Below are positions 14,742 through 22,298 of a stretch of DNA of 64,000 nucleotides, piece after piece (positions within the stretch are counted from its first letter, which is position 1; the number at the start of each line of letters is the position of its first letter). This stretch comes from Clostridia bacterium. Lineage in GTDB: Bacteria > Bacillota > Clostridia > Christensenellales > Borkfalkiaceae. The translations under genes were made by a program, and so were the position numbers. The notes beneath the pieces were generated by a model that had not been told where the DNA came from, ran no database searches, and saw only the letters and a list, made by a program, of their open reading frames with translations. The stretch is taken from assembly GCA_017456055.1 (NCBI GenBank), contig JAFTKC010000008.1:1-64000 (forward strand), read 5' to 3'.

Positions 14742-14764
14742 AATACAATTAAAAATAAGAAAAA

Positions 14765-14788
14765 AAGCCTACCACTTGGTAGGCCTTT
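14765..14788. terminator. Terminator shared by convergent genes
   Basis: GCCTACC / GGTAGGC stem with an ACTT loop flanked by A-rich and T-containing sequence, between the deacetylase and the TrkA/RyR gene. Confidence 0.8.
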
Positions 14789-14800
14789 CAATTTTAAATT

Positions 14801-16597
14801 TTATTTACTTCCAACTTTTCTATCCTTTAACTTATCTTCATCTGAAAGTTGGTCGAAGAAGACTAAGTTGTGGTGAACTTTAGCAAGGTCGTTTCTCTTT
14901 TCTCCGTGAACGAATCCTTCGGAGCGCATATAAGCATTCCAACGTTTGTGTTCTAATAGTTCAATCGTAGAGATGTCTTCTTCGGTCAACTCGTCTTCTT
15001 TTTTGTCAGCGCCTTTAATTCCCAAAAGGATTCTCGCTTTCATGTGAATTGCAGAAGCGGTTGAAGAGCGATAGTTATAATCGTATCTCCAAAAGTCTTC
15101 TTCTTTTCCGTACTTTAAGTGTCTACTAAGAGCGTCTTGTTCTAATTCGGAGTCGATAATAACCTTTTCGGAATAGGTAGTTTTAATATCGCCGATACAA
15201 TTGATTTTGTACTCTTGACCTCTAGGGTTAGTTGCTCTCTCTATATACGCCTTTTGTTCGCTATCGTAAACTACGGTGTTGATGACTGGAGAAAGGTTAT
15301 ATCTTTCAAACAAGGTTCTAACCTTAACGGCGCAGGATATATTCGAAGCGTCGCTACCACTACTAATGAAAACGAAAGTAGCGTCTTTAATAGCCTTAAT
15401 TTTCTCGTCGAATTCCTTAGTGGTGTAGTCTATGCCAGAGTGAATTATAATGCTATATTCCGATTCACCCTCAACTGAAACTCCGTTATAACGCTTGTCC
15501 ATAAGTTCAGGACAAGAAGAACTGAATTTAGATTCAGCCTTTTCATCTTCATCAAAGGCGTTAATTTTTATTTCGTATCCGTCCATTTGACAGAACCAAG
15601 TAAGCGCTTTAACAAGAGTAGAGCCGTAATTACCTAAACCGATTACGACGGCGGAAATCATTTTCTTATTCGAATCGGGAATAGGTCTTGCCGAACGGAA
15701 TATCTCCTCGCCTCTTTCGTAGAGGGTGCGGTAGATTAAAGATTGAGCGTAATTTATCTTTCTAACTTTAATTTTGCTATCCACGGCGTTGCTTAAAACT
15801 AAGTCGCCTTGAGCGGTGCGAGAGAAAAGATAAATTTCGGTGTTATCTCTAGTCTTATATAGTTCGTTTAGTTGAGAGAAAATTTTAATATTTTCGCCTT
15901 CGACTTCGTTTAGGATAAAGAAGTAAATTTCACTATTTTTACTATGGAATCCCCAATTTATGTGAGTGATGTCCTTTTTGAAACTGATTGCGCCAATAGC
16001 GTTAATTTGTTCAAAAAGTTTATGTTCTTTATCGTCGTCAAACTTATAGATGTCGGTAAAAACGATAAGCGCTTTCTTATGGTTTTTAGCAATATCGGTT
16101 GCTAAGGCTACCGAGTAATCGTTTAGATACGAGAAAACGTAAACGTCTTTTCTATAAGCAAAAACGTATTTAGCGTAAGAGATGACGTTTTTGAAAAACG
16201 AGAGTATAAAACCGAAAGTTAATATTGGCGCCGTCACGTAAATCAAGGCAGTGTAAACTGGATAAGCGTGATAGATAAAACCTTCTAGATTAGCAGTTGA
16301 TTCTCTAATCATTTCAAAGTCACTATCAATTATAAAAAGCCTTATGGTATTATGAATTGATAGTAGCGCCGTCTTTACGATTCTAAATACTGGGGAAGCC
16401 GTTTCTTCAAAGAAGTCGAAGTATACCGGTATAAAAATTATAAGTCCCGCCAAGAAAACTCCCGCCATTAAATAATTTAAGGGGTTAAACGATTTTATTC
16501 GTCCATCTTTATTTTTAGTTTTTGATTTTACCAAAATCCAGCATAGTATTGATAAGATAACGAATACTGAAAGGCAAAAACAAATTGTCCAAATCAT
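14801..16597 (-). CDS. Membrane protein with two Rossmann/RCK-like domains and a C-terminal RyR domain
   Basis: The 598-aa protein has three clear hydrophobic segments (about 1-23, 40-63, 112-137), then a Rossmann-like region (150-290). A second Rossmann domain carries the dinucleotide motif G320-L-G-N-Y-G325 (to ~470). Next come a conserved-looking DFWRYDYNYRSS segment (~501) and a C-terminal RyR domain (about 545-594: LEHKRWNAYM, then AKVHHNLVFFDQL and EDKLKDR). TrkA/RCK domains gate ion channels by binding nucleotides. RyR repeats in bacteria have been proposed to sense nucleotide-derived ligands. It follows the TIR gene by 10 bp with its own AGGAAG site, so the two are almost certainly co-expressed. 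Ligand and ion are unknown. Confidence 0.8.
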   Translation of the reverse strand: MIWTICFCLSVFVILSILCWILVKSKTKNKDGRIKSFNPLNYLMAGVFLAGLIIFIPVYFDFFEETASPVFRIVKTALLSIHNTIRLFIIDSDFEMIRESTANLEGFIYHAYPVYTALIYVTAPILTFGFILSFFKNVISYAKYVFAYRKDVYVFSYLNDYSVALATDIAKNHKKALIVFTDIYKFDDDKEHKLFEQINAIGAISFKKDITHINWGFHSKNSEIYFFILNEVEGENIKIFSQLNELYKTRDNTEIYLFSRTAQGDLVLSNAVDSKIKVRKINYAQSLIYRTLYERGEEIFRSARPIPDSNKKMISAVVIGLGNYGSTLVKALTWFCQMDGYEIKINAFDEDEKAESKFSSSCPELMDKRYNGVSVEGESEYSIIIHSGIDYTTKEFDEKIKAIKDATFVFISSGSDASNISCAVKVRTLFERYNLSPVINTVVYDSEQKAYIERATNPRGQEYKINCIGDIKTTYSEKVIIDSELEQDALSRHLKYGKEEDFWRYDYNYRSSTASAIHMKARILLGIKGADKKEDELTEEDISTIELLEHKRWNAYMRSEGFVHGEKRNDLAKVHHNLVFFDQLSDEDKLKDRKVGSK

Positions 16598-16607
16598 AAT
16601 AAACTTC

Positions 16608-18188
16608 CTATTGCTCTACGTGTTTAATATTTTTTCTCTTGCAGTAGTTTGAAGCAGCCGAGTGTTTACCGCAAATAACGGTCACGTCTTCACAGCCGTT
16701 TAAGATACCCCAACCGAAATCTTTAACAGAGTCGGGGATAACCAAAGTTTTAAGTCCCGTACAACCTCTAAAAGCCGTATCGTCGATTCTAACGATAGAG
16801 TCTGGTAGAATCATTTCTTCTAGAGAAGTACATCTATAGAAAGCGCCTTCGCCGATTTCGTATACGCTATCAGGAATTTTAATAGACTTAAGTTTATTAC
16901 ATTCGCAGAAAGCCCAGTCGCTTATTACCGTCACGCTATCGGGGATAACGTATTCTTCTTTATCCGTGCAAGCAGGGAAGCATATAAGGGTAGATTTACT
17001 CTTATTGAATAAAATATCTTCAACCGACTTAAAGTATTTGCTCTTTGATTCAACGTTGATAGAAGTAAGTTTACTACAACTTCTAAACGGGCTCATACCA
17101 ATACTGGTGACTGAAGCGGGAATAGTAATCGTAGATAAATTAGTACAATCTTTGAAAGTGTTTTTACCGATTTTGGTAAGATTTTTAGAAAGATTTATTT
17201 CTTCTAAACCGATACAGCCGTTAAATACCATATCGTCGATTTTGGTCACGCTATCAGGAATATCGATTTTCTTAATTCTAATACAATCGGCAAGAGAACT
17301 TTCACCTAAGATAGTTAATTTTGAAGGCAAGGTAATACTTTCTAAGGCCTTACAACTGTTAAACACACCACCATAAATTTCCGCCATTCCCGATGGGAGT
17401 GAAACAGAACATAGGTTAGAGCAGTTTTCAAATGCTCTTTCGCCGATTTCAATGTCAGGGTTGGTGACGATTAATTCTTTTAAGTTGATGCAGTCTCTAA
17501 AAGCGCTTTCGCCAACTTGCTTAATTGTTGACGGAAGGTTTATAGAAGTTAAATTTTTACAACCTCTAAACGCTTCGTTGCCTATAGACTTAACGTTGTC
17601 GCCAATTATAATAGTTTCAAGTTTTTCGCAATTCTTAAACGCAGATGGACCAACTGAAACGACGTCGTCTGGAATCTTAATGATAGGACTTCCGTCTTTA
17701 CATTTAACCAAAACGCCGTTTTCCACGTTGAGAGCACGCATTGTTTCGATTGGAAGACTTGAAATAAGTTTAGCGATATATTTATCTGAGTTGATAACTT
17801 CACTCTTAACGTGTTGAAGATTGTCTAAAATCATTGAGATTGCAGGTGGAACGTGAACGTCTTCTTCCAAGTAGATAGGATAGATACGTTTTTCATACTT
17901 AAACGCTGTGATAATTTCCATACCGCAGTACTTTGATTGAAGTGACGATTTGGAAATAAATAGTAAAATTGCAGCGCTATGTTCAATTTTAGTGCGTAAT
18001 TCTTCTCTAAAATCGTCGCCGATTTCCATAGTATCGTCGTACCACATACGGAATTTTTCTTTGTCAATTTTCCTTAAGACGTCGTTAACTATTTTGGCGT
18101 CTCTATGAGAATAACTGACGAAAAGGTAGGGTTCTGGACCCTCGTAAGAGTCGATAGTGATTTTGCTAAAGGTGGTTTTTTCTTCCAT
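16608..18188 (-). CDS. TIR domain fused to BspA-type leucine-rich repeats
   Basis: The 526-aa protein has an N-terminal TIR domain (about 18-125: LFVSYSHRD, MWYDDTMEIGDDF, LLFISKSSLQSKYCGMEI). E91 in the SKYCGMEI helix aligns with the catalytic Glu of NAD-cleaving TIR domains. From about 150 to 520 it consists of ~23-residue LRR_5/BspA repeats (AF-x-NC-x-L-x-x-I-x-LP pattern). There is no signal peptide or membrane segment, so the repeats should be cytosolic, unlike usual secreted BspA proteins. An AAAGGAG site precedes the ATG. The architecture suggests a sensor (LRR) and NADase or adaptor (TIR). The neighbouring RyR-domain membrane protein may be its partner. Confidence 0.85.
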   Translation of the reverse strand: MEEKTTFSKITIDSYEGPEPYLFVSYSHRDAKIVNDVLRKIDKEKFRMWYDDTMEIGDDFREELRTKIEHSAAILLFISKSSLQSKYCGMEIITAFKYEKRIYPIYLEEDVHVPPAISMILDNLQHVKSEVINSDKYIAKLISSLPIETMRALNVENGVLVKCKDGSPIIKIPDDVVSVGPSAFKNCEKLETIIIGDNVKSIGNEAFRGCKNLTSINLPSTIKQVGESAFRDCINLKELIVTNPDIEIGERAFENCSNLCSVSLPSGMAEIYGGVFNSCKALESITLPSKLTILGESSLADCIRIKKIDIPDSVTKIDDMVFNGCIGLEEINLSKNLTKIGKNTFKDCTNLSTITIPASVTSIGMSPFRSCSKLTSINVESKSKYFKSVEDILFNKSKSTLICFPACTDKEEYVIPDSVTVISDWAFCECNKLKSIKIPDSVYEIGEGAFYRCTSLEEMILPDSIVRIDDTAFRGCTGLKTLVIPDSVKDFGWGILNGCEDVTVICGKHSAASNYCKRKNIKHVEQ

Positions 18189-18224: not shown

Positions 18225-18264
18225 ACAAAAAGTTAACCTTTTGCATTTAGCAAAAGATTTAACT
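18225..18264 (-). terminator. Hairpin between the transporter and TIR genes, terminator or attenuator
   Basis: Read on the minus strand: AGTTAA, two unpaired bases, CTTTTGC, a 5-nt loop, GCAAAAG, one base, TTAACT, then TTTTG. It lies in the 85-bp gap and could end the transporter mRNA or modulate read-through into the TIR-RyR pair. No convincing separate promoter is visible in the remaining ~36 bp. Confidence 0.7.
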
Positions 18265-18273
18265 TCTTATAGA

Positions 18274-19575
18274 TTATACTATTACGAAAAGTATCGCTAA
18301 GTTCACTACGAGCGACGGAATAGAAATCATTGCACCGTATTTTATGAACTGGACGAAACTTAATTTTACGTTGTGATTTTTAAGTAATGACGACCACATA
18401 ATTCCCGCCAAAGCGCCGATTGGAGTTAAAAGTGCGCCGAGGTTTGAGCCGACGATAGTTGCATAAATCGCACCCGTTGCGGCAGTGCCGGTAAGTCCTT
18501 CCATGATAGGGCAGAACAAAACGCTCATAGGGATATTGTTTATTAAGTTTGCCGCTAAGTAGGAAACAACGCCGTATTTTAGTACCGAGTGATTTGAGCC
18601 TAGCAATTCGCCGATTTTCTCGGTTATTCCTTGATTCTTGAAGGCTAAAACCATTATAAACATTGATAGTACGAAAGGAATTAGTTGCCAAGGAGCACGC
18701 TTTAAACAAGCCGTAAGTTCTTTAGGACGACTCTTCTTTATAGCCGAGAATATTAATACGAAAAGGAATAGCGATATTGCCGATATGAAAGAAACAGTCC
18801 ACATTTCAATATTAAAGTAAGGTCCTATCGCTAAGATTATCGTACAAACGGATAGGTGAACTAAGCCGATAACTAAAAGTGGTTTGTTTTCAATTTTCAC
18901 ATCCTCAATTTCTGCTTCTGCAGGTTTTTTAAGGTCTTTTCTAAAGATTAAGTAAAGAATAACAAAAGAAATGATCGCAGATGCCAAAGTAGGCAATATC
19001 ATAACCTTAAAGTAATCAAAGAAGTTAATTCCATAAGCCGTTGCAATGTAAATATTGGTTGGATTTCCTATAATGAGCGTCATACTCATCGTGTTAGCCG
19101 CAATAAATTCGCCTATCAAGTAAGGGATAGGGTTGATTTTAGCATTTTTACAAAAGTAGCAAATAAATGGGGTAAAGGTCAAAACGATTATGTCGTTTGA
19201 GGTGAACACCGTTAAAACTGAAACCACTACGTATAAAATGACGAATAGTTTCATTTGGCTACTTTTTGCTTTCTTTAGAGAAAGGTTGGCTAAATATCTA
19301 AAGAAGCCAACTTCGTCCAAAAAGATGGACAAAATGGTCATTGAAATAAACAAAACTAAGATTTTAAGTGGGTTAACGGCGGTATTTGCAGTTAGCGTTT
19401 CCCATAAATAACCTAAGTCCACAAAGCCAAAAGCGATTACTAAAATCGCGCCGATAAGAACTATTACCCAATAAGAATCGAGCGATATTTTACCGAACTT
19501 AAATTGAGGCTTAAATAGAACGCATAAAATCATGGTTAAACAAGTTAGTGCTACTATTATTATGCAAGGAATCAT
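18274..19575 (-). CDS. ArsB/SLC13-superfamily ion transporter
   Basis: I chose the ATG at 19575, with GGAG 7 nt upstream. A TTG further up would include the ribosome site. The 433-aa protein has about 11-12 hydrophobic segments and the two inverted ion-transporter repeats: SNDIIVLTFTPF with IGNPTNI in the first half, and NNIPMS with GSNLGALLTPIGALAG in the second. These are hallmarks of the ArsB/NhaD/CitM/SLC13 superfamily, which moves anions or Na+/H+. Substrate cannot be told, and no ars regulator or arsenate reductase is nearby. It lies upstream of the TIR-RyR genes on the same strand, separated by a hairpin. Confidence 0.85.
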   Translation of the reverse strand: MIPCIIIVALTCLTMILCVLFKPQFKFGKISLDSYWVIVLIGAILVIAFGFVDLGYLWETLTANTAVNPLKILVLFISMTILSIFLDEVGFFRYLANLSLKKAKSSQMKLFVILYVVVSVLTVFTSNDIIVLTFTPFICYFCKNAKINPIPYLIGEFIAANTMSMTLIIGNPTNIYIATAYGINFFDYFKVMILPTLASAIISFVILYLIFRKDLKKPAEAEIEDVKIENKPLLVIGLVHLSVCTIILAIGPYFNIEMWTVSFISAISLFLFVLIFSAIKKSRPKELTACLKRAPWQLIPFVLSMFIMVLAFKNQGITEKIGELLGSNHSVLKYGVVSYLAANLINNIPMSVLFCPIMEGLTGTAATGAIYATIVGSNLGALLTPIGALAGIMWSSLLKNHNVKLSFVQFIKYGAMISIPSLVVNLAILFVIV

Positions 19576-19688
19576 AACTTTCTCCAAAATAAATATTTAA
19601 ACAATATATATGATAACATAAAATAATTCCTAATTCAACAATTTTAAACTAATTTCAATAAAATGTCCACGCAAAAAAGTTAAAAATG

Positions 19689-20081: not shown

Positions 20082-21617
20082 TTGAAACAAAAAAGAGTTA
20101 AAGGGCTATACGTCGATAAAAATATAGTTTGGGCAAAAATAAAAGAAGCGTTCACTTCAGTTTTGCCTATTTCTCTTATAGTTTTTTTACTTTGCGTGAC
20201 CATCGTTCCAGCAGAAAGTGGGCGATTGCTCTCCTTTTTAATCGGCGCAATGTTGTCAACTATTGGAATAGGTTTATTTACGCTAGGAGCAGATACTTCA
20301 ATGACGCCTATTGGAGAATACGTAGGTAAAACGATAATAAACACTAAAAAATTGTGGATTATACTTCCCGCATTTTTCTTCGTGGGAATATTTATAACAA
20401 TTTCCGAGCCTGACCTTGCCGTTTTAGCCGAGCAACTTTCTAATTCTATTGGACATTGGCTACTTATCATTACTATCGGCGTGGGCGTCGGGGTGCTTTT
20501 GGTGGTGGCTATTTTAAGAATAGTGCTTAGAATTAGGTTTAACGTGATTTTAATCGTGCTTTACGTTTTAACGTTTGCCCTTTCTTTCTACGCTCCAAAA
20601 CAAATCGTACCGTTGGCGTTTGATTCGGGTGGAGTGACGACAGGGCCTATGAGCGTTCCCTTTATCATTGCAATCGGTACTGGTGTTGCGATGATGAGAA
20701 CGGATAAAAATGCTAGCAACGATAGTTTCGGTTTAACGGCTTTATGCTCGATTGGACCTATACTTTCTGTTATGATTTTGGGTATAATTTTAAAGCCACA
20801 AATTACTACGGTGGCTGATTCTATAATAATTCCAGAAACGGCAAGGGGCGTGGTTGGCGACTTCGTTAAGGCTCTTCCAAAGTATTTAAAAGAAGTTGGA
20901 ATCGCTCTTCTTCCTATGGTGTGTTTCTTTTTTATTACAAGAATTTTTGGAACGAGAATTAGTAGAAGCGCACTCATTAAGATTTTCGTGGGTGTAGCCT
21001 ATACTTACGTGGGATTAGTATTATTTTTAACGGGTGTAAACTGTGGGTTTGCGCCAATGGGCAACTTTATAGGAAAAGCTATTGCGGGAAGCGAATATCA
21101 ACTAATCATTATTCCAATAGGTATAATAATAGGTTTCTTCGTTGTGGCGGCTGAGCCTGCCGTTCACGTTTTAACCAATCAGGTTTACGAAATTACCTCG
21201 GGTATGATTCCTAAAAAAGCACTTTTATATAGCCTTATGATAGGTACGGCAGTATCTTGTGGGCTTGCAATGCTTAGAATAGTTTTGGGCGTGGATTTAA
21301 TGTATTTTTTAATTCCAGGTTATCTAATTGCGTTGGTTTTAACCTTTTTCGTTCCCGAAATATTTACGGCGATTGCGTTTGACTCGGGTGGCGTTGCTTC
21401 AGGGGCGATGACTTCTGGCTTTTTACTTCCGTTAGCACTAGGTGTAAACGTGGCAGTTGGAGGAAGCGCAGAATCGGGTTTCGGTTTGGTGGCGCTAGTT
21501 GCAATGACTCCACTTATTACCATACAAATACTCGGTTTAATATTTAGAATAAAGTTAAAGAGAGTAAAGGCGAAGAGCACGCAAGACAACCAATTAAAAG
21601 AACAAATTATAGATTAG
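20082..21617 (+). CDS. Tandem-DUF1538 membrane transporter
   Basis: The 511-aa polytopic membrane protein has two homologous halves. Each contains an AFDSGGV-(T/A)-(T/S)-G motif (near residues 180 and 430) followed by a glycine-rich helix and an (S/E)-x-FGL-x-AL segment, which is the DUF1538 repeat. Two-gene DUF1538 proteins have been described as Na+(K+)/H+ antiporters (UmpA/UmpB), and here both halves are on one chain. The start is TTG, since no ATG precedes the first membrane helix. The neighbouring double PII protein probably regulates it. The ion is inferred, not shown. Confidence 0.8.
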   Translation: MKQKRVKGLYVDKNIVWAKIKEAFTSVLPISLIVFLLCVTIVPAESGRLLSFLIGAMLSTIGIGLFTLGADTSMTPIGEYVGKTIINTKKLWIILPAFFFVGIFITISEPDLAVLAEQLSNSIGHWLLIITIGVGVGVLLVVAILRIVLRIRFNVILIVLYVLTFALSFYAPKQIVPLAFDSGGVTTGPMSVPFIIAIGTGVAMMRTDKNASNDSFGLTALCSIGPILSVMILGIILKPQITTVADSIIIPETARGVVGDFVKALPKYLKEVGIALLPMVCFFFITRIFGTRISRSALIKIFVGVAYTYVGLVLFLTGVNCGFAPMGNFIGKAIAGSEYQLIIIPIGIIIGFFVVAAEPAVHVLTNQVYEITSGMIPKKALLYSLMIGTAVSCGLAMLRIVLGVDLMYFLIPGYLIALVLTFFVPEIFTAIAFDSGGVASGAMTSGFLLPLALGVNVAVGGSAESGFGLVALVAMTPLITIQILGLIFRIKLKRVKAKSTQDNQLKEQIID

Positions 21618-21626
21618 GAGAAGGAT

Positions 21627-22298
21627 ATGCAAGGTGTTAAATATTTAGTAATAATAACTCACAGAGAGTTTTCTGAGCACTGCATAAAATCTTTAAAACA
21701 AATAGGCGCGAAGTCGGTTATCTCAAAACTTTGCAAGGGAACGGCTACGGACGAACTATTAAACTTTTTAGATTTGGAAAAAACTGAAAAGATTATGATA
21801 GAGACTATGGTGTACGATTATCAAGTTGAACAAATAAAAAACACTCTAGTTAAAGAACTCAAGTTCAACTCTTCGGGCAACGGAATAGCAATGGTGTTGC
21901 CGGTTGACGGGTTGGGTGGAAACTTTGCAAGAAATTATTTTTTAGAGCAGGAAGAGAGTAAAAAGGAGATTGAGAGAATGGACCAAAGTAAATTCGTTTT
22001 AATATTAACTATATGTAATAATGGTTATAGCGACGTGGTGATGGACGCTGCGAGAGAAGCGGGCGCTACGGGTGGAACGGTTTCAAGGGCTCAAGGAACG
22101 GGCGCTGAACTCGCTAAGTTTTTCGGCGTGACCATAAGCGAAGAAAAGGAAATGGTTTATATTGCCTCAAAGAGAGAAAATAGGGATAAAATAATGTACG
22201 CTATTATGGAAAAAGCGGGAAAAGATTCGCCTGCTTTCGGCGTAGTTTTTGCGCTACCAGTTGAAAAGATTTTGGGCGTGGCAAGTTTGGAAGACTAA
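21627..22298 (+). CDS. Double PII-like signalling protein
   Basis: The 223-aa protein contains two PII-like ferredoxin folds, about 4-105 and 115-222. The second has a T-loop-like stretch GGTVSRAQGTGAEL followed by FFGV-x-ISEEKEMVYI, as in PII proteins. The first is more diverged, with a shortened loop. PII proteins bind adenine nucleotides and 2-oxoglutarate and gate transporters. It lies 9 bp after the DUF1538 gene with AGGAGAAGG before its ATG, so it most likely controls that transporter. A single-chain double PII is less common than the homotrimer. Confidence 0.8.
   Translation: MQGVKYLVIITHREFSEHCIKSLKQIGAKSVISKLCKGTATDELLNFLDLEKTEKIMIETMVYDYQVEQIKNTLVKELKFNSSGNGIAMVLPVDGLGGNFARNYFLEQEESKKEIERMDQSKFVLILTICNNGYSDVVMDAAREAGATGGTVSRAQGTGAELAKFFGVTISEEKEMVYIASKRENRDKIMYAIMEKAGKDSPAFGVVFALPVEKILGVASLED

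Follow-up and report, generated by a model that had tools for sequence, protein, structure and literature searches.

A minus-strand gene row for an ArsB/CitMHS-type transporter, a TIR-LRR protein and a channel-like RyR-domain protein in a Clostridia bacterium, with a possible ADP-ribose-type signal between them

Introduction

The 64,000-nucleotide stretch analysed here (the window; Clostridia bacterium of the Borkfalkiaceae, assembly GCA_017456055.1, contig JAFTKC010000008.1, positions 1 to 64,000) carries on its minus strand a row of three genes, encoding an ArsB/CitMHS-type transporter, a protein in which a TIR domain is fused to leucine-rich repeats (LRR), here called T, and a membrane protein ending in a RyR domain, here called M. 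An initial annotation, made from the letters alone, had placed T and M 10 bp apart on this strand, where they indeed lie, and had read them as a pair in which T makes a nucleotide signal and M responds at the membrane. The extent of the unit was underestimated, as the transporter gene on the same strand was missed (Table 1).

Linkage of prokaryotic RyR and TIR domains is an older idea, and Burroughs et al. reportedly proposed, in 2015, links between prokaryotic RyR domains and nucleotides. Open-access titles and abstract openings gave no description of a system combining a TIR protein with a RyR-RCK protein among the matches listed, and word searches of PMC9503650 and PMC13092281 returned no mention of RyR. 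The present analysis contributes the transporter as the constant partner of T, the predicted tandem-RCK channel-like fold of M, the full set of ligand residues and the statistics of association.

Table 1. Features of the three-gene unit and of its flanks, in window coordinates
Feature	Position	Strand	Evidence
Transporter, ArsB/CitMHS-type (ion transporter superfamily), first gene of the unit	18274..19575	-	CitMHS E 4.1e-47, ArsB E 6.2e-36 (Pfam)
T, TIR-LRR protein, 526 aa	16608..18188	-	TIR_2 E 1.2e-17, LRR_5 E 1.6e-83; family alignment
TIR domain of T, residues 20-127	17808..18131	-	Pfam; alignment to solved TIRs; family alignment
E91, putative catalytic glutamate of T, in KYCGMEI	17916..17918	-	position checked in sequence
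BspA-type LRR region of T, about residues 170-505	16674..17681	-	LRR_5
M, channel-like membrane protein, tandem RCK unit (predicted) and C-terminal RyR domain, 598 aa	14801..16597	-	
Membrane region of M, helices 2-26, 39-62, 69-88, 94-100, 107-146	16160..16594	-	model; hydropathy
RCK-like Rossmann domain 1 of M, residues about 150-305	15683..16150	-	model; CASTOR, KtrA/TrkA, GsuK gating-ring matches
RCK-like Rossmann domain 2 of M, residues about 312-485	15143..15664	-	model; family alignment; structure matches
RyR domain of M, residues about 539-596	14810..14983	-	Pfam; family profile; model
RyR ligand residues H550, W553, H575, D592 of M	14822..14950	-	family alignment
Promoter-like site TTGAAT-17-TATCAT, TG before second hexamer (extended -10), upstream of transporter	19610..19638	-	consensus match only
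Intrinsic-terminator-like hairpin directly behind M	14762..14789	-	12 pairs, then T-rich tail
Weaker hairpin between transporter and T	18235..18259	-	10 pairs (3 G-C), then AACTTTTTGT

The TIR-LRR protein

The fusion of a TIR domain to BspA-type LRR that had been described for T is borne out by Pfam, with a TIR_2 match over residues 23-127 (E 1.2e-17) and an LRR_5 match at E 1.6e-83. In a sequence alignment to solved TIR domains, E91 falls on the Glu of SSWCLDEL in the plant TIR AT1G72930 (PDB 3jrn), which we take to be the catalytic position of TIR NADases, and it is invariant in all 11 aligned sequences of the T family, the window's own counted. On this alignment T appears to possess the catalytic glutamate of TIR NADases, in agreement with the role first assigned to E91. 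T also matches ThsB_TIR (E 1.8e-5) and the ThsB models of PADLOC (best E 2.1e-7), while Pfam found no NB-ARC/STAND ATPase in it.

Relatives of T are conserved in both halves. The copy of a genus-mate (L019, a contig also sampled as G121) shares 83% identity in the LRR and 89% in the TIR domain, and six further copies (L021, L031, L032, L045, L060, L061) share 53-56% and 47-53%, respectively. The LRR of T probably recognises something conserved. At one locus, L068, the T gene is masked by a longer antisense open reading frame (ORF). The genome of the window (G000, 1.39 Mb) holds four further TIR_2 genes, on contigs C24, C11 (two) and C26.

The RyR-domain membrane protein

M had been described as a three-helix membrane protein with two Rossmann domains and a C-terminal RyR domain. 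Its AlphaFold model has a mean predicted local distance difference test score of 94.3 and a predicted template modelling score of 0.86. The three strong hydrophobic segments are present (residues 1-27, 37-65 and 114-139, by hydropathy), but the model adds a helix at 69-88, between the second and the third. Both Rossmann domains and the C-terminal helices are seen in the model, the second Rossmann domain carrying GxGxxG (G320, G322, G325) and D349, and the best structural matches of the model are the tandem-RCK units of CASTOR/DMI1, KtrA/TrkA, GsuK and Slo1/BK. Near-full-length alignments with GsuK and Slo1 stand at a root-mean-square deviation of 6-11, and helices 39-62, 69-88 and 107-146 are the candidate pore helices. 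The model thus predicts a tandem RCK gating unit of the GsuK/BK/CASTOR type, and the TrkA-like responder of the initial annotation is better described as a predicted tandem-RCK channel-like protein. Outside the RyR domain, the M family profile gives no convincing PDB sequence match; the TrkA_N match of the window's M alone is sub-threshold (Pfam, E 0.003), NCBIfam gives a chance-level match (E 0.042) and PADLOC none.

The RyR assignment is carried by the family profile, which finds the solved RyR domains 6uhi (E 1.2e-13) and 3nrt (E 4.1e-6), and by the M relative L115, which passes the Pfam RyR cut-off (31.5 bits). In the phage enzyme RyDEP, 3'cADPR (an isomer of cyclic ADP-ribose, cADPR) is contacted by H75, W78, H100 and D117, according to PMC13232231. 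The residues H550, W553, H575 and D592 of M have the identical spacing, 0/3/25/42, and are kept in 53, 56, 56 and 56, respectively, of the 56 aligned M rows (of 58) that reach the RyR region. The C-terminus of M is accordingly assigned, by sequence, as a RyR domain (PF02026) with R12-repeat sequence and ligand residues. That T and M merely resemble their families by chance is untenable, since both are conserved in relatives.

Two variations on this domain were seen among the M loci. A lone 93-residue RyR protein (L049:7807-8088, E 7.3e-37) is encoded directly downstream of M, and long M-like proteins of 1083-1146 residues (L123:4283-7723, L134:4536-7787) carry a C-terminal extension past the RyR-like region.

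Association of T, the transporter and M

Twenty T loci were compared: the window, five from a family sample (G121, G150, G172, G026, G045), the six copies named above, which were found through M, and eight from an order sample. In the family sample an LRR-half query matched 200 of the 201 genomes, that is, a common BspA repeat, and only the five far-outscoring genomes were taken and their loci checked. The transporter adjoins T in 19 of the 20 loci, G026 being the exception, and is its most constant neighbour, while M adjoins T in nine, seven of which had been returned by the M search. T and the transporter are therefore regarded as the core of the unit.

The order sample comprised 396 genomes, in which T was called at 236 bits or more (next match 124). 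T is present in nine of these and M in 27, and seven of the nine T genomes hold M somewhere (P 1.0e-7), so that T and M co-occur elsewhere, as had been suggested. Without the window genome P becomes 1.2e-6, counted on genera 2.9e-4 and with only those M matches that reach the RyR part (5/9) 1.6e-5; shared descent beyond the genus count is ignored in these values. M may thus work with T and the transporter in cis, or in trans if the co-occurrence is meaningful.

Association of M with TIR genes

Across the 48 M loci surveyed in GTDB-collection genomes, a whole-genome TIR_2 search gave 183 matches, from which same-contig counts are lower bounds. At least 11, 15 and 19 of the 48 genomes have TIR_2 no further than 1, 3 and 5 kb, respectively, from M, where uniform placement expects 0.17, 0.50 and 0.82. 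TrkA_C genes, used as a control (one to five matches in 47 of the 48 genomes, distances read by eye and unscripted), lie near TIR in 1/48 at 1 kb and 2/48 at 3 kb among the matches listed. The link between TIR genes and M is real and beyond chance. TIR_2 is also the commonest Pfam family among the operon-like neighbours of M (15), alongside LRR types, CitMHS (6), AAA (5) and RyR (3), in a scan that covered 86 of 114 genes, giant ORFs and some outer, small or doubtful ones being left out, and that skipped 4 of 57 loci in which M was missing from the non-overlapping ORFs.

On a tree of 68 M sequences, built by a quick method, TIR adjacency requires 16 parsimony changes, 11 of them forced by starred branches, against a mean of 18.7 with shuffled labels (16 or fewer in 44 of 500). 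Labels came from Pfam scans or the TIR_2 search, with by-eye similarity for L131, and the label 'none' also covers contigs that break off close to M. The tree shows hardly any clustering of TIR adjacency, and the pairing has therefore been remade or lost many times.

The TIR partners are not all of the T type. At three loci (L126:5288-10999, L130:4059-9911, L131:1-5779) M directly precedes a large protein of about 1125-1242 residues, assigned as TIR-NB-ARC/NACHT by Pfam for L126 (NB-ARC 1e-6, TIR_2 6.2e-4) and L130 (AAA_16 2.2e-9, NACHT 4.2e-5, TIR_2 2.1e-4), both TIR_2 matches being under the Pfam cut-off, and by similarity for L131. This is an architecture like that of plant nucleotide-binding LRR (NLR) proteins.

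Other neighbours of M were recorded. A CAP12/Pycsar-type TIR gene (L076:8239-9576, E 7.8e-10) lies three ORFs downstream of an M homologue. A second channel-like protein, of about 700 residues, lies beside M or in its vicinity at L021:10698-12815, L035:7903-10050, L056:7827-10043 and L057:7805-9901, with weak CASTOR and DMI1 profile matches (E 0.003-0.012) and a conserved LDAGC stretch; homology by sequence between M and this CASTOR-like neighbour (A3) is unsupported (hhalign probability 0.2%), though structures match the CASTOR class. A giant protein of about 1500-1960 residues with apparent membrane segments is often found upstream of M (L021:10-5886, L034, L043, L055, L057, L061), the copy in L021 giving a weak transglutaminase-core match (E 0.006).

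RyR genes near TIR genes beyond the M family

A RyR search of 348 genomes of the phylum found RyR genes in eight, at ten places, around which about 1.5 kb per side was examined, the sample having no background count. TIR_2 was confirmed near RyR in four of the eight (L151, L152, L156, L160). In L156 a RyR protein is followed by a TIR-LRR_5 gene, and in L160 a RyR protein with an apparent membrane segment is followed by a TIR gene, on whose other side, 3.6 kb off, lies a second RyR gene of that genome (L157). A free-standing RyR gene adjoins a TIR-beta-helix gene in L152, and one ORF separates a TIR gene from the RyR gene, about 1 kb away, in L151. The stretches around L153, L155, L158 and L159 showed no TIR. 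The recurrence of RyR-TIR pairing, as first proposed, thus holds both for M and in the phylum. Since RyR domains lie near TIR genes in unrelated architectures, such as that of L152, a shared TIR product is suggested.

At L154:1-3148 a RyR protein has a DUF4062 gene downstream, DUF4062 being described in PMC13174449 as a TIR-like NADase family. In L153 and L155 TrkA_N and RyR are combined in one protein, apparently with a membrane segment, which represents a RyR membrane family distinct from M. The protein encoded beside it contains a VGVTGHRPGG stretch and matches DUF4231 below threshold (Pfam, on L153 only).

Transcription signals and genomic setting

Most simply, the transporter, T and M form one transcription unit, since a promoter-like site lies upstream of the transporter, a terminator-like hairpin follows M and the flanking genes lie on the opposite strand. 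Promoter-like sites are no commoner in the window than chance (19 against 15.6, standard deviation 3.7, in shuffles), while terminator-like sites number 11 against 3.0 (standard deviation 1.7). The weaker hairpin between the transporter and T is a possible attenuation point. The listed reading frame of the transporter opens at TTG 19587, its likely start being ATG 19575 after a GGAG ribosome-binding site.

Beyond the unit, two neighbouring genes (20082-22298), named by reading alone and presumably a DUF1538-type membrane protein and a P-II-like protein, stand together in all 14 genus-mate loci examined. At the 14 genus-mate loci sharing the neighbour 20082-21617, no left-hand synteny was found in the 1.5 kb flanks, and an empty site was therefore not demonstrated. 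No plasmid match was found, and the sole match in the phage collection, an M homologue at 38% identity, is on MT835673 (L150), a record named 'Bacteriophage sp.', UNVERIFIED and unannotated, whose ORFs read as ordinary cellular genes. This record is taken as a mislabelled bacterial chromosome contig, and a phage- or plasmid-borne system is rejected on both counts.

Comparison with known systems

As in Thoeris, a TIR enzyme, here with a putative ThsB-like signal synthase judged by profile matches, stands beside a candidate effector whose domain is of a kind able to read ADP-ribose-type signals. Unlike Thoeris, the TIR domain is fused to BspA-type LRR, the unit includes a transporter and the effector role would fall to a membrane protein with tandem RCK and RyR domains. 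No ThsA-type effector (SIR2-SLOG, TM-macro, caspase-like) was found when the three operon proteins, along with two or three neighbouring ones, were scanned by Pfam, NCBIfam and PADLOC, a search that did not extend to the remaining genome; with no such effector in the operon, identity with Thoeris is rejected, as it had been from the start.

M shares PF02026 and the four equally spaced ligand residues with RyDEP and the phage RyR proteins of PMC13232231, but RyDEP is a small protein with which a phage counters defence, acting as glycosidase or sponge, whereas the domain of M ends a chromosomal membrane protein beside a TIR gene. With CASTOR/DMI1, GsuK, Slo1/BK, KtrAB and TrkHA the model of M shares the predicted domain order, in which tandem RCK Rossmann domains come after the membrane helices; unlike these RCK-gated channels, it has no K+ selectivity filter recognisable by eye and bears an added RyR domain. 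T joins TIR and LRR as plant TIR-NB-LRR proteins do, and related M loci carry TIR-NB-ARC as in bacterial TIR-STAND proteins, but T itself lacks a detectable ATPase of this type and carries BspA-type LRR. In common with animal cADPR-ryanodine receptor signalling there are the proposed R12 ligand class and a putative channel bearing a RyR domain, whereas the body of M matches RCK-type channels rather than the RyR pore and the signal is a proposal.

Proposed mechanism and alternative explanations

The reading that fits best, which we regard as evenly balanced between right and wrong, has an ADP-ribose-type signal produced by the TIR domain and read by the RyR domain of M, with a change in ion flux as the result. 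T would be an enzyme of the cytosol, its LRR responding to some conserved partner or ligand; one possibility is that it follows the state of the transporter encoded alongside. Once triggered, the TIR domain would convert NAD+ to an ADP-ribose-type signal by way of E91, the C-terminal RyR domain of M would bind it, and the tandem RCK unit would relay this to the membrane helices and alter ion flux, as in ligand-driven RCK rings. The transporter may be the object that the LRR monitors, or it may provide a second output. In this scheme we infer the NADase activity and its product, signal binding and conduction by M, the trigger, and anti-phage arrest or a stress response as the outcome. A fuller version, held tentatively and rated somewhat short of an even chance, has M as a ligand-gated channel that receives, at its RyR domain, a cyclic ADP-ribose isomer produced by TIR, and T, the transporter and M as a complete prokaryotic cADPR-to-RyR circuit, the channel being reused by many TIR sensors including TIR-NB-ARC proteins.

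Several observations weigh against signalling from T to M. The Pfam RyR match of the window's M alone (E 7.9e-4, 20.1 bits) is under the 27.4 cut-off, and no TVGYG-like K+ filter was recognised by eye in M residues 62-112 or in the family consensus, so that conduction is put forward as a proposal. Among the matches listed, 29 of the 48 M loci have no TIR_2 within 5 kb, some contigs being short; M has non-TIR neighbours too; it lies beside T in two of the nine order-sample loci, and none was detected in the T genomes G150, G474 and G337 (the last 79% complete). The pair as first drawn therefore stands in part: the link recurs, but the conserved partner of T is the transporter. The GC content of the unit is the same as that of its neighbours, giving no sign of recent insertion. 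T is as identical to its genus-mate copy as a housekeeping piece, or more so (T 83%, a 240-residue piece of Tex 77%, the transporter 69%, M 53-54%), which is not the pattern expected of a sensor in an arms race, and a fast-evolving phage sensor is not favoured because in relatives the LRR is conserved equally with the TIR domain. A PADLOC scan of T, M, the transporter and two downstream genes, the wider surroundings being unscanned, gave TIR-type matches for T and generic regulator matches for a helix-turn-helix gene. Defence is favoured by the relatives of NLR-like type, by the scattered occurrence of M and by the part that phage RyR proteins play against Thoeris, and weakened by the slow evolution of T and by the lack of any other defence-type PADLOC match in the five proteins scanned.

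The same slow evolution of T, at the level of the housekeeping Tex piece, would suit a purpose other than immunity, in which the chemistry may be the same: a TIR-LRR plus transporter core serving ion or anion homeostasis and stress adaptation, with an LRR that senses the transported ion or a conserved host component and with M as an optional partner for ion flux. The 19 loci with the transporter beside T, which include genomes without detected M, fit this, as do the strongly conserved LRR and the chromosomal setting, with no plasmid match and a single 'phage' match that looks mislabelled. We nevertheless consider it less likely than not, if the most serious of the rivals, given how patchily the genes occur (M in 13 of the 201 genomes of the family, T in 9 of the 396 of the order sample) and the adjacency of M to NLR-like TIR-NB-ARC and other TIR proteins, which is a better fit to defence. 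It is improbable that M is instead an off-switch, its RyR domain a membrane-tethered, RyDEP-like glycosidase or sponge against the TIR signal with the transporter or another protein as effector. H550 and D592 do correspond to the catalytic H75 and D117 of RyDEP, but of eight phage homologues put to the test, six bound 2'/3'cADPR and, highly conserved in sequence as they are, left it uncleaved (PMC13232231), a scavenger needs neither a tandem RCK unit nor membrane helices, and M often occurs without T (20 of the 27 M genomes of the order sample). Even less is to be expected of a scheme with no shared signal, where T would consume NAD+ directly as a suicide NADase while M would monitor NAD(H), ATP or ADP through its RCK unit, with an ordinary adenine nucleotide as the ligand of the RyR domain. 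The matched RCK/KTN structures do bind NAD+ (1lss), ADP (4gx1) and ATP-gamma-S (4j9v), going by their entry titles, and RyR R12 domains take adenine ligands too (PMC13232231); against it stand the RyR genes found near TIR in unrelated architectures, including the free-standing gene of L152.

Biological significance

The direct action of cyclic ADP-ribose on ryanodine receptors has been disputed for decades. Studies of cADPR acting on these receptors are called for in PMC13232231. A small bacterial RyR protein with all four ligand residues, a channel-like RCK body and a TIR neighbour offers a minimal setting for following signal, receptor and ion flux with purified components. If the proposed signalling from T to M is true, it would be a bacterial version of cyclic-ADP-ribose-to-RyR signalling, a membrane-conductance effector would join the repertoire of TIR signalling, and the repeated neighbourhood of RyR and TIR genes would be explained.

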